Shown here one piece after another: positions 27,722-37,162 of a stretch of 64,000 nt of DNA. The position numbers and the translations under genes were made by a program. The notes below the pieces were generated by a model. It saw only the letters and a program-made list of their open reading frames with translations, was not told where the DNA came from and did no database searches. Within the stretch, counting starts at the first letter, position 1; every line of letters begins with the position of its first letter. This DNA is from Janthinobacterium agaricidamnosum (lineage in GTDB: Bacteria; Pseudomonadota; Gammaproteobacteria; Burkholderiales; Burkholderiaceae_D), in NCBI RefSeq assembly GCF_003667705.1, contig NZ_CP033019.1, positions 2,232,001-2,296,000 on the forward strand, written 5' to 3'.

Positions 27722-30406
27722 CTATTGCCAGCCGAATTTGCGCAGATACACGCGTTTCATGAACGTCGTCAGCACGGTGTAGCAGACGAGGATGCCCAGC
27801 AGCCATGGGAAATAGCCCAGCGGCAAGGCTTGCAGCTTGAAGTAGGTCGCCAGCGGTCCCATCGGCAGGAACACGCCCACGGCCATGATGACGGTGGTGG
27901 CCACCAGCAGGGGCACGGACGCGATGCTGTCGATGAAGGGCAGCTTGGGTGTGCGGATCAGGTGCACGATCAGCGTCTGCGTCAGCAAGCCGACGACGAA
28001 CCAGCCGGACTGGAACAGGGTCTGTTGTTCCGGCGTATTCGCGCCGAACACATGCCACATCAGGATAAACGTGCTGATGTCGAAGATCGAGCTGATGGGC
28101 CCGAAGAACACCATGAAGCGGCCGATGTCGCGCGGGTTCCAGGTCAAAGGCTGCTGGATCAGCTCGGCGTCGACATTGTCGAACGGGATGGCGATCTGCG
28201 ACACGTCGTACAGCAGGTTTTGCACCAGCAAGTGCAGCGGCAGCATGGGCAAGAACGGCAAAAAGGCGCTGGCCACCAGCACGGAAAACACATTGCCGAA
28301 GTTCGAGCTGGCCGTCATGCGGATGTATTTGAGCATGTTGCTGAAGGTGCGCCGGCCTTCCAGCACGCCTTCCTCGAGCACCATCAGGCTTTTTTCCAGC
28401 AGGATGATGTCGGCCGCTTCCTTGGCGATATCGACGGCCGAGTCGACGGAAATACCGATGTCGGCCGCGCGCAGGGCGGGCGCGTCGTTGATGCCGTCGC
28501 CCATGAAGCCGACGATATGGCCGTTGCCGCGCAGGGCGCGCACAAGGCGTTCCTTGTGCAGCGGGCTGAGCTTGGCAAACACGGTATTGTCTTCCGCAGC
28601 GCGGGCCAAAGTGGCGTCGTCCATGTCGTCCAGTTGCGGGCCTTGCAGCACGCCGTGCACGGCCAGGCCCACTTCGCGGCAAATCTTCGCCGTCACCAGG
28701 TGGTTGTCTCCCGTCAATACTTTCACGGTGACGCCATGTTCCGCCAGCGCGCGCAGGGCGGGCGCCGTCGATTCCTTCGGCGGATCAAGAAACGCCACAT
28801 AGCCGATCAGGGTCAGCGCCGTTTCATCGGCCACGCCGTACACGGTCTTATGGGGCGGCACTTCCTTGACGGCCACGGCCACTACGCGCAATCCTTCCGC
28901 GTTGAGGCCATGCGTGGTTTCCAGTACCTTGTCCAGCAGGGCCGCGTCGAGCGGAATGTTGACGCCGCCGAGGCGCAGATGGCTGCAGGCGGCGAGGATT
29001 TCCTCGACGGCGCCCTTGCAGATCAGCTCATGGTGGTCATTCTTTTCAGACACGACAACGGACATGCGGCGGCGCACGAAATCGAAGGGGATTTCATCGA
29101 CTTTCACGTAATCGCGGGCCAGTTGCATTTCCGTCTGCAATTCCACATGGTCGAGCACGGCGCGGTCGAGCAGGTTTTTCAGGCCGGTCTGGTAGTGGCT
29201 GTTCAGGTAGGCGAATTGCAGTACTTCATCGGACGGCTGGCCGAACACGTCCGTATGGCGTTCCAGCACGATCTTGTCCTGAGTCAAGGTGCCCGTTTTA
29301 TCTGTGCACAGCACGTCCATGGCGCCGAAGTTCTGGATCGCATCCAGGCGCTTCACGACGACTTTCTTTTTCGACAGTTTCACGGCGCCCTTGGCCAGGG
29401 TGCTGGTGACGATCATGGGCAGCATTTCCGGCGTCAGGCCCACGGCGACGGACAGGGCGAACAGGAACGCTTCCATCCAGTCGCCCTTGGTCCAGCCATT
29501 GATCAGGAACACGAGCGGCGCCATCACGAGGGCGAAGCGGATCAAGAGCCAGCTGACGCTGTTCACGCCCGCCTCGAACGCCGTGGGCGTGCGCTCGGTG
29601 GCCGTCACTCGCGTGGCGATGGTGCCGAAATAGGTGCGGTTTCCCGTGGCCAATACCAGCGCCGTGGCCGCGCCGGAGATTACATTCGTGCCCATGAACA
29701 GCAGATTGGCCAGTTCCATCGGGTCTTTGCCATGGGCGTCGGCCAGCTCTGCCATCTTTTCCACGGGCAGGGATTCGCCCGTCATGGCGGCCTGGCTGAC
29801 GAACAGGTCTTTCGCGGACAGCAGCCGGCAGTCGGCGGGGATCATGTCGCCGGCCGACAGCACGATGATGTCGCCCTGTACCAGCTGGCGGATGGGCAGC
29901 TCAATCTGCTGGCCATTGCGCAGCACGGTGGCGGTATTGCTGACCATGGCTTTCAGGCGTTCGGCGGCGCGGTTCGAGCGGCCTTCCTGCACGAAACGCA
30001 GCAGGGTTGATAAAATCACCATGGTGCCGATGACGATGGTCGCCTTCGGGTCTTCCGTCAGGTAGGACACGATGGCCAGCACGGTGAGCAGCAGGTTGAA
30101 CGGATTCTTGTAGCACAGCCACAGGTGCTGGTACCAGGCCAGCGGTTTCTCATGTTCGACCTCGTTCGGCCCCGTCTGCGCGCCGATGACTTGCGCCTCG
30201 GCATCGCGCAAGCCTTCCAGGCGCGTGTGCAGGCGGTTCAGGGCGCTGTCCAGGTCTTCATGGGCGGCGGCCAGCAGCTGGCGCGCCAGGTGGTCGGGCA
30301 CGGGGCGGGCCGTGCTGTTTTCCAGCGGCATGGCGCGGCGCCGGAAGTTGCCGGCCGTATGGCGCTTGCGCAGGAACGATTCGAATAAGCGGGTGAAGAG
30401 ATTCAT
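27722..30406 (-). CDS. mgtA: Magnesium-translocating P-type ATPase
   Basis: Imports Mg2+ across the inner membrane using ATP. 894 residues from the ATG at 30406, which is preceded by AAGGAAG; the in-frame upstream extension to 30496 is not family-like. Phosphorylation site D369 in VLCTDKTGTLTQD, the actuator TGES motif (AAMTGESLPVEK), the hinge FMGDGINDAPALRAADIG, and ten membrane segments with the type IIIB insertion pattern identify MgtA/MgtB. It is preceded by a strong promoter and a leader of about 300 nt with heavy secondary structure, which suggests Mg2+-dependent control at the RNA level. Confidence 0.95.
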   Translation of the reverse strand: MNLFTRLFESFLRKRHTAGNFRRRAMPLENSTARPVPDHLARQLLAAAHEDLDSALNRLHTRLEGLRDAEAQVIGAQTGPNEVEHEKPLAWYQHLWLCYKNPFNLLLTVLAIVSYLTEDPKATIVIGTMVILSTLLRFVQEGRSNRAAERLKAMVSNTATVLRNGQQIELPIRQLVQGDIIVLSAGDMIPADCRLLSAKDLFVSQAAMTGESLPVEKMAELADAHGKDPMELANLLFMGTNVISGAATALVLATGNRTYFGTIATRVTATERTPTAFEAGVNSVSWLLIRFALVMAPLVFLINGWTKGDWMEAFLFALSVAVGLTPEMLPMIVTSTLAKGAVKLSKKKVVVKRLDAIQNFGAMDVLCTDKTGTLTQDKIVLERHTDVFGQPSDEVLQFAYLNSHYQTGLKNLLDRAVLDHVELQTEMQLARDYVKVDEIPFDFVRRRMSVVVSEKNDHHELICKGAVEEILAACSHLRLGGVNIPLDAALLDKVLETTHGLNAEGLRVVAVAVKEVPPHKTVYGVADETALTLIGYVAFLDPPKESTAPALRALAEHGVTVKVLTGDNHLVTAKICREVGLAVHGVLQGPQLDDMDDATLARAAEDNTVFAKLSPLHKERLVRALRGNGHIVGFMGDGINDAPALRAADIGISVDSAVDIAKEAADIILLEKSLMVLEEGVLEGRRTFSNMLKYIRMTASSNFGNVFSVLVASAFLPFLPMLPLHLLVQNLLYDVSQIAIPFDNVDAELIQQPLTWNPRDIGRFMVFFGPISSIFDISTFILMWHVFGANTPEQQTLFQSGWFVVGLLTQTLIVHLIRTPKLPFIDSIASVPLLVATTVIMAVGVFLPMGPLATYFKLQALPLGYFPWLLGILVCYTVLTTFMKRVYLRKFGWQ

Positions 30407-30704
30407 GGCTCTTCCTTTCACGACGAGGTGTTGACGGGCGGCGCAGCCGCAGGCAAGACTTGCGTGCCGCCAAGACACAATCGTGCTGGCGGGCAATCCG
30501 GGTCAGTAGCCGGTCGCGATCGGAAAGAGGGGGGAGAGGCGCGCAGCCGGAGTGGCCGCGCGAGACACCGCACCTTGCTCAGCAAGGCACGGAGGAAAGA
30601 GCGTTCCGCGTTGCTTGCTGCTTAGCTGCCGAGGCAATCACCGATACAAGATCGGCTACTGTCACTAGAACAAGTACCCACGTGGGACTCCGTAAATGAA
30701 TAAT
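30407..30704 (-). ncRNA. Structured 5' leader of mgtA, candidate regulatory RNA
   Basis: RNA read on the minus strand from a predicted start near 30704. A long-range helix joins 30653-30663 to 30502-30512 (GACAGTAGCCG with CGGCTACTGAC, one mismatch). Inside it are hairpins at 30641-30655 (CCGAT/ATCGG), 30568-30592 (11 pairs including GU, loop TGA) and 30540-30562 (9 pairs, loop ACTCC). Nearer the start codon two hairpins, 30467-30492 and 30437-30471, compete for the same GGCGG strand, the usual logic of a switching expression platform about 20 nt before the ribosome site. It does not match the M-box consensus. Function inferred from position and folding. Confidence 0.55.
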
Positions 30705-30710
30705 GAGGGC

Positions 30711-30739
30711 ATCTTATGGATGGGCTGCAACAGTGTCAA
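30711..30739 (-). promoter_or_regulatory. Sigma-70 promoter of mgtA
   Basis: On the minus strand TTGACA (30734-30739), a spacer of exactly 17 bp, then TAAGAT (30711-30716): a near-consensus promoter, placing the start about 30704 and a leader of about 300 nt. A perfect palindrome CCCACGTGGG (30677-30686) just inside the transcript could be an operator. Confidence 0.8.
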
Positions 30740-31075
30740 CTGAAGAAATCTTAGCTTTCCAAAGTGTAATGTGGGCGTGGACGAACACGAAAGTCCGATG
30801 CCACGGCCATTCATGTTGTTGTGACAATGTGTGATTCTTTCTGCTTGGCAATCCGTTATGCTCGGGTACGCTGACGCGCTACTCCTGCAGGTTTCAGATC
30901 CGGCTCGAGATCAGGATGCCTTGGCCTTGTTGTGCTGTTTGCCGTCGTTCCGCTGACTTGCTTTCTACTGGTGCACGCCTAAACCGGACCCATTTTTGGC
31001 GTGGCGCGCCTCGCCAAGGGCTACGCGTTCCCTGCCAGCCTCCACGATGCTGCTGCTCCGCATGCGTAGAAACCC
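30740..31075. other. Intergenic stretch with no convincing gene
   Basis: Between the mgtA promoter and the first of two overlapping unknown ORFs. Short open frames on both strands are broken or have atypical Arg/Cys-rich composition, and none matches a family I know. The sequence looks like decayed coding DNA (for example around 30850-31070), but its origin cannot be read. Confidence 0.4.

Positions 31076-34261: not shown

Positions 34262-37162
<2,901 letters not shown>

Follow-up and report, generated by a model that had tools for sequence, protein, structure and literature searches.

A candidate Mg2+-responsive leader RNA family upstream of Mg2+ transport genes in Burkholderiales and Pseudomonas

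The window analyzed here is a 64,000-nucleotide stretch of the Janthinobacterium agaricidamnosum genome (NZ_CP033019.1, positions 2,232,001 to 2,296,000), and all coordinates refer to it unless another locus is named. Its reverse strand carries mgtA (27722-30406, ATG at 30406-30404), which codes for a magnesium-translocating P-type ATPase (TIGR01524, 1342 bits). A sigma-70-like promoter precedes the gene on the same strand (30711-30739), with the -35 box TTGACA at 30739-30734, a 17-nt spacer and the -10 box TAAGAT at 30716-30711. This near-consensus promoter had been pointed out in a preliminary description of the locus, and we found no second promoter-like site within 30350-30900 (shuffled sequences average 0.2). 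The 302-nt leader folds just modestly better than its shuffled versions (z of -1.66; 4 of 100 shuffles at least as stable), so that folding energy alone is weak evidence, and the case for a leader RNA is carried by conservation and by covariation, seen from genus to genus in P4, P7 and the competing P5. Two sites in the whole window match Rfam, both as parts of a tandem glycine riboswitch (RF00504, 38932-39152, reverse strand) located upstream of a glycine-cleavage region; by eye, the 966-aa ORF at 34262-37162 resembles a glycine dehydrogenase.

A covariance model, R2, delimits in the leader a conserved RNA core of about 125 nt (30564-30692) with a score of 71 bits, the window's own copy being part of the training set, and a shorter model, R1, matches 30705-30623. 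The features that follow are all on the reverse strand and are listed from the 5' end of the RNA. A near-invariant GGAG (30688-30691) is followed by the P2 hairpin CCC-ACGU-GGG (30677-30686), whose three pairs are formed in 32/43, 59/71, and 62/71 sequences, by the P3 hairpin ACU-UGUUCU-AGU (30664-30675; 89.7% of cells paired, both-side change in one of three pairs), and by the P4 hairpin CCGAU-CUUGU-AUCGG (30641-30655; 73.0% of cells paired, both-side changes in five of six pairs). P5 (30580-30620) joins CAGCAAG at 30620-30614 to CUUGCUG at 30586-30580, with 82.1% of cells paired, and encloses the P6 hairpin CGCGGA/UCCGUG (30588-30610; both-side changes in three of four pairs). The 11-bp hairpin P7 (30568-30592) excludes both P5 and the 3' strand of P6. 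Immediately 3' of P7 lies the P8 hairpin (30540-30562), and 3' of P8 a C/U-rich, G-free stretch (30522-30539) that is rut-like, with a putative role. The conserved core ends well 5' of the start codon, and no intrinsic terminator was found in the leader of the window. The three internal hairpins anticipated by the preliminary description correspond to P4 (30655-30641), P7 (30592-30568), and P8 (30562-30540), while its list of helices lacked P2, P3, P5, and P6, which belong to the core at 30692-30564.

No Rfam family, M-box included, matches the leader, which bears out the preliminary view that this is not an M-box, and the copies that were scanned gave no match either. A permissive Rfam scan of the leader returned just three weak matches, far below their cut-offs. 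The M-box covariance model had no match at gathering score (cmscan) in the window or in sets of 9, 20, and 18 loci, and permissive scans of two copies found nothing near it. The Mg_sensor model, which represents the Salmonella-type mgtA leader, had no match in the leader of the window.

The element is not confined to this locus. When the genus was searched with the DNA of the leader, 34 of 40 genomes matched, and 29 of those 34 had a further, short match at another locus. In the genome studied here, the second core copy is found at 4.92 Mb, before an mgtC/sapB gene (assigned by MgtC family models) whose start codon lies ca. 140 nt after the core. The promoter of this second copy (TTGACC-17-TAGACT) ends 20 nt before the GGAG, compared with 19 nt in the window, and the best promoter-like pair starts its -10 box 24 to 34 nt upstream of the GGAG in 99 of 118 homologous leaders. 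Some mgtA leaders of relatives (L034, L035, L037, L038, and L039) still end with the mgtC ribosome site and initial mgtC codons (ATGATCTG...), a remnant suggesting that duplication of the mgtC leader gave rise to the mgtA one.

To follow the family further, genomes were searched with R1 (82 positions, built from 13 family sequences) and R2 (123 positions, 44 sequences, none of them from Pseudomonas), neither search being conditioned on genes. Within the family, R1 matched 117 of 294 genomes at an E value of ≤0.05, of which ca. 15 could be chance; 104 of these matches were at ≤0.001, and six of the 13 above that value (the L057-type loci L163-L167) were rescored with R2 and confirmed where listed. 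In the order, R1 matched 31 of 399 genomes at ≤0.05, with 20 expected by chance and several loci having no element nearby; since this count includes chance matches, we relied instead on R2, which found the element in 41 of 399 genomes and 32 of 159 genera at an E value of ≤0.001. A class-wide sample gave R2 matches in 7 of 369 genomes at ≤0.01, namely, the window's own and six weak ones (1e-4 to 0.01) that are about what chance predicts (3.7 expected) and lie by ORFs that look unrelated by eye (rpoC-like, folP/glmM-like, and others). This sample had suggested a family limited to Burkholderiales, an idea that was overturned when named genomes were scanned with a degenerate 26-base pattern. The scan gave at least 120 stretches; among the 80 matches listed, 60 were in Pseudomonas and the others were in Oxalobacteraceae (the preliminary description had proposed an RNA of this family alone, which proved too narrow), Pigmentiphaga, and a Rhodocyclaceae MAG, and a Janthinobacterium psychrotolerans record also carried the element. 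R2 matched all 46 of the listed pattern loci on which it was run (71 to 118 bits). Since R2 holds no Pseudomonas sequence, its matches there are an independent test of the model: in the Pseudomonas genus of L208, 52 of 99 genomes matched at ≤0.001, of which 45 were at ≤1e-18, two at ca. 1e-10 to 1e-12, and five were weak. The RNA spans Burkholderiales and Pseudomonas; many of the former carry it, as do roughly half of the species sampled in one Pseudomonas genus.

Among 14 genomes chosen by pattern, each had one copy except Noviherbaspirillum autotrophicum (G222/G1069), with four. No plasmid DNA similar to the window's leader was found, nor any from phages, and two plasmid records were similar to the DNA of another locus, L101. 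The conjugative IncP plasmid pSM0227-07 (L352, 4001-8126) carries the element followed by a hypothetical gene, mgtA, and mgtC (MgtC/SapB), with 86.5% identity by blastn; the element can therefore travel with these genes.

The named helices were counted on an alignment of 44 sequences made by MAFFT from sequence only (A3). For P3, P4, P6, and P7 together, 79.9% of the cells are paired, against 30 to 54% for slid versions of the same helices. Both-side changes occur in 18 of 24 pairs (reached by 6 of 500 shuffles), and there are 132 double-change cells versus 42.0 ± 7.2 in the shuffles (0/500), while further pair types were matched by 29 of 500 shuffles; in all of these comparisons, kinship can lift sequences above shuffles without any structure. 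P7 alone has 66 double-change cells versus 17.1 ± 5.8 (0/500), with pair types matched by 45/500. When P5 replaces P7 in the set, 81.4% of the cells are paired and there are 88 double-change cells versus 33.3 ± 4.8, with double-change pairs (66/500 shuffles) and pair types (171/500) not beyond shuffles. Taken alone, P5 has 22 double-change cells versus 8.8 ± 2.3, its both-side-change pairs (96/500) and pair types (298/500) do not go beyond shuffles, and its covariation score is barely above that of one slid control (0.248 versus 0.240). P5 and P7 both covary and share alignment columns 133-139; using one strand, they cannot coexist. The compensatory changes expected by the preliminary description of a riboswitch-like leader on a Mg2+ importer are therefore present in the homologs, as is strand competition, with the difference that the widely supported pair is P5 versus P7 and not the hairpins by the ribosome site.

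Two other ways of explaining the conservation were considered. A stretch of 31 nt is extremely conserved within the genus, as would be the site of a DNA-level regulator just downstream of the promoter, but such a site would not call for compensatory changes in four helices, and both the distance and the sequence between conserved blocks vary, so that this explanation is hardly credible. The second is a translated leader peptide like MgtL, MgtM, or MgtP of Salmonella, in which the speed of the ribosome on a short upstream ORF picks the hairpin, a type of control known for Salmonella mgtA and mgtCBR (PMC3641672). Although ATG-started ORFs of at least 8 codons are found in 55 of 109 leaders, they are spread over three frames (37, 26, and 16), no frame is kept open (30 codons are free of stops in 11, 17, and 20 of the 109 leaders), and the core and its flanks show insertions of one base and altered loop lengths, making control by a leader peptide improbable.

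Folding predictions gave a less uniform picture of the proposed leader RNA. RNAalifold predicted 0 pairs on a 71-sequence MAFFT alignment. In single-sequence ensembles, the mean pair probability was 0.55 for P7, 0.08 for P5, and 0.07 for both P3 and P6; in this analysis, the alignment columns misplace the P7 of the window by one, and the window energies derived from it were not used. The hand-drawn states of the window have nearly the same energy (-43.1 kcal/mol with P5 and -43.0 kcal/mol with P7), and the minimum-energy fold of the window core plus P8 (-61.6) is a third structure that is neither the P5 nor the P7 drawn state. Energy models omit tertiary contacts and ligands; hence, contrary folds are not fatal to the model, of which P5 is the least secure part. 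Compared with mononucleotide shuffles, the element folds better (z below -1) in 109 of 119 leaders (the 86 loci described below plus 33 of the 46 pattern loci tested with R2), and the 45 nt around and after the core end, where P8 lies, do so in 97 of the 119.

Two features of the preliminary description proved to be clade-specific. The closing helix of the preliminary description is a perfect 9-bp long-range helix in the window (30504-30661), joining CAGUAGCCG at 30661-30653 to CGGCUACUG at 30512-30504, its last 3 bp overlapping P4. It recurs in 13 loci from a part of the window's family (12 at an offset of 36 to 45 within the searched stretch that follows the core, and L099 at an offset of 21); L129 has one compensated pair. 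As a family-wide feature it was rejected, matches of at least 8 bp being found in 24 of 107 leaders versus 14.5 expected from shuffles; a looser search gave at least 8 bp in 49 of 99 leaders, with a longer query that ran into P4. The same holds for the two alternative late hairpins before the ribosome site (30437-30492; one at 30492-30467 and the other at 30471-30437), which had been proposed to compete for one GGCGG strand: both can be drawn by eye on the sequence of the window, but they are clade-specific: by eye, 5 of 17 leaders, among them that of the window, have their sequence. The C-rich, rut-like stretch is strong in the window; in the family as a whole it shows no enrichment (47 of 119 leaders above their shuffles). 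A GGAG-UUCC helix after P8 was considered and is not claimed here, since GGAG is too constant for a covariation test. By eye, a CUCCCUG strand of mgtC-type leaders is able to pair with their ribosome site, which would suit translational control.

The downstream genes were classified from 88 R2 matches on 89 loci (there was none in L125), reduced to 86 loci by dropping L118 and L119 as duplicate places. A long downstream ORF was available for 84 of them (L189 has none, and L034 was left out because of its wrong frame); the second ORF was taken at L038, where the first is an outer-membrane-like gene, and at L137 and L199 because of a spurious-looking first ORF. Pfam assigned the 84 proteins to P-type cation ATPases (39), OprB porins (11), Nramp (7), ABC permeases of the BPD_transp_1 type (7), MgtC (6), CorA (1), CtaG (1), and another porin (1), leaving 11 without a hit, most of which were placed by frame-independent signatures as an outer-membrane-like protein, ABC permease, or MgtA. 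The CtaG (cytochrome oxidase assembly) protein is coded by the long downstream ORF of the copy at L168. In the signature scan, 7 of the 86 loci matched no signature, and three loci scored as ABC followed by MgtA look spurious. MgtA, MgtC, Nramp, or CorA make up 53 of the 84 downstream genes, judged by position and not by expression. Of 27 Pseudomonas loci inspected by eye, 24 lead into mgtA and two into mgtC, with no call for one.

The outer-membrane-like protein (RPMITDDARIV...CQLESW) comes first in 9 of the 86 loci (L034, L038, L099, L134, L138, L158, L163, L179, and L185), and mgtA or mgtC is next in seven of the nine; the one from L138, the only one tested, had no Pfam or NCBIfam match. 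The Nramp protein of L131 has as its best PDB match the NRMT transporter EleNRMT (7qia), with 149 bits versus 71 for MntH. In the NRMT literature, the metal site is described as DxxG - TxxA/T in place of DxxN - A/CxxM. DPSG is present in all seven Nramp proteins, and in L131, the only one compared, DPSG of helix 1 fits DxxG, while helix 6 has TTIS versus TTIA of EleNRMT. At L207 (2575-7306), the operon behind the RNA codes for an OprB-type porin, a BPD_transp_1 permease with two domains, and an ABC ATPase that carries AAA_assoc_C; L348 (5596-8695) has the permease and the ATPase, L282 (2344-4068) part of the same set, and in L349 OprB is followed by mgtA. To our knowledge, this set is not known as a Mg2+ uptake system, and we consider the OprB porin, two-domain ABC permease, and ATPase a candidate for one. 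The membership of porins, ABC permeases, CtaG, and other first genes in a Mg2+ regulon is an inference.

This gene content weighs on what the RNA might sense. A cis-acting RNA that responds to a signal other than Mg2+ (a nucleotide, a polyamine, or another ion) or that is bound by a protein, with the Mg2+ genes as one of its outputs, would accommodate the porins, the ABC system, and CtaG, and gene context does not fix the ligand, a caution similar to that voiced for the mgtE motif in the consulted part of PMC11109978. Against it, four unrelated Mg2+-linked families (MgtA, MgtC, CorA, and NRMT-like Nramp) share the RNA and no other common factor was seen, so we regard a different signal as rather unlikely. 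The core might also be a separate trans-acting small RNA (sRNA) that merely starts at the same promoter. A pair of Burkholderia pseudomallei sRNAs, Cand449/846, is described in the available text of PMC3521395, where one of the two was confirmed by RT-PCR with sequencing and the pair has homologs with an mgtC2 gene among their neighbors. Nevertheless, the element repeatedly precedes Mg2+ transport genes, and in the same text the sRNA is reported across several phyla, at odds with the distribution found here, which leaves a trans-acting sRNA very improbable. Cand449/846 could instead be an earlier sighting of the present RNA, without an assigned function, a likeness based on neighbor genes and not on sequence; the upstream ORFs of eight loci, inspected by eye, did not show whether they are the same.

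Known Mg2+-sensing leader RNAs are the M-box and the enterobacterial mgtA/mgtC leaders. The M-box (ykoK) leads Mg2+ transporter genes, including mgtA, mgtE, and NRMT, and forms mutually exclusive structures. The RNA described here shares both traits but has other helices and conserved bases, no covariance-model match, and, in the window, no intrinsic terminator. The Salmonella/E. coli mgtA (Mg_sensor) and mgtCBR leaders, which form alternative stem-loops in a long leader, have the same target genes, mgtA and mgtC; unlike them, the new element lacks an Rfam match and a conserved leader-peptide frame (109 leaders), and a single RNA family serves both mgtA and mgtC. The yybP-ykoY Mn2+ riboswitch is also a metal-sensing leader and is found on P-type ATPase genes as well, but it had no match in the window leader. 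A yybP-ykoY riboswitch at L102 (2770-2900, reverse strand) and a copy of the new element are ca. 1.2 kb apart. The mgtE motif of Thioalkalivibrio, likewise a candidate metal riboswitch of a Mg2+ transporter gene, has 32 representatives in one genus and its ribosome site and AUG in the P4 stem, according to the available text of PMC11109978; the core of the new RNA ends well before the start codon, a distinction drawn from the description and not from an alignment. The available main text of a report of 104 motifs (PMC2864571) mentions neither magnesium nor mgtA. No such RNA was described at mgtA or mgtC of Burkholderiales or Pseudomonas in the open-licence literature, insofar as its text was accessible, nor in the passages retrieved on Cupriavidus. 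Apparently, this leader RNA family has not been described so far.

Judging from the comparison of sequences, this family of cis-regulatory RNAs at Mg2+ transport genes is almost certainly genuine. A covarying structure lies in the 5' leader of functionally linked genes, and P5 and P7 are mutually exclusive conserved structures, of which P5 is weaker on slid controls and single-sequence folds. The leader of the window is one member of this widespread cis-acting family at the 5' end of Mg2+-uptake mRNAs, and it probably acts as a Mg2+-responsive riboswitch. A direct response of the RNA to Mg2+ seems likely to a similar degree, the ligand being deduced from the downstream genes. With sufficient cytoplasmic Mg2+, the core with P5 and P6 would compact and hold the shared strand, lowering expression; at low Mg2+, P7 would form instead and the gene would be expressed. 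We lean only slightly toward this direction, repression at high Mg2+. The output step could be ribosome access or Rho-dependent termination. On present sequence evidence, the element is a strong candidate for a new class of Mg2+ riboswitch that may work like the M-box but is not one.

It is reasonably probable that the family constitutes an additional class of Mg2+-sensing riboswitch, unrelated in structure, working by a strand move between P5 and P7 and governing a regulon of MgtA, MgtC, CorA, and NRMT together with a predicted OprB/ABC uptake route. A separate class in well-studied Pseudomonas could explain how such bacteria set Mg2+ uptake, and it would offer a compact RNA for experiments on metal sensing and strand exchange. 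It would also point to OprB porins, an ABC permease with its ATPase, and an unnamed outer-membrane-like protein as probable components of Mg2+ uptake.
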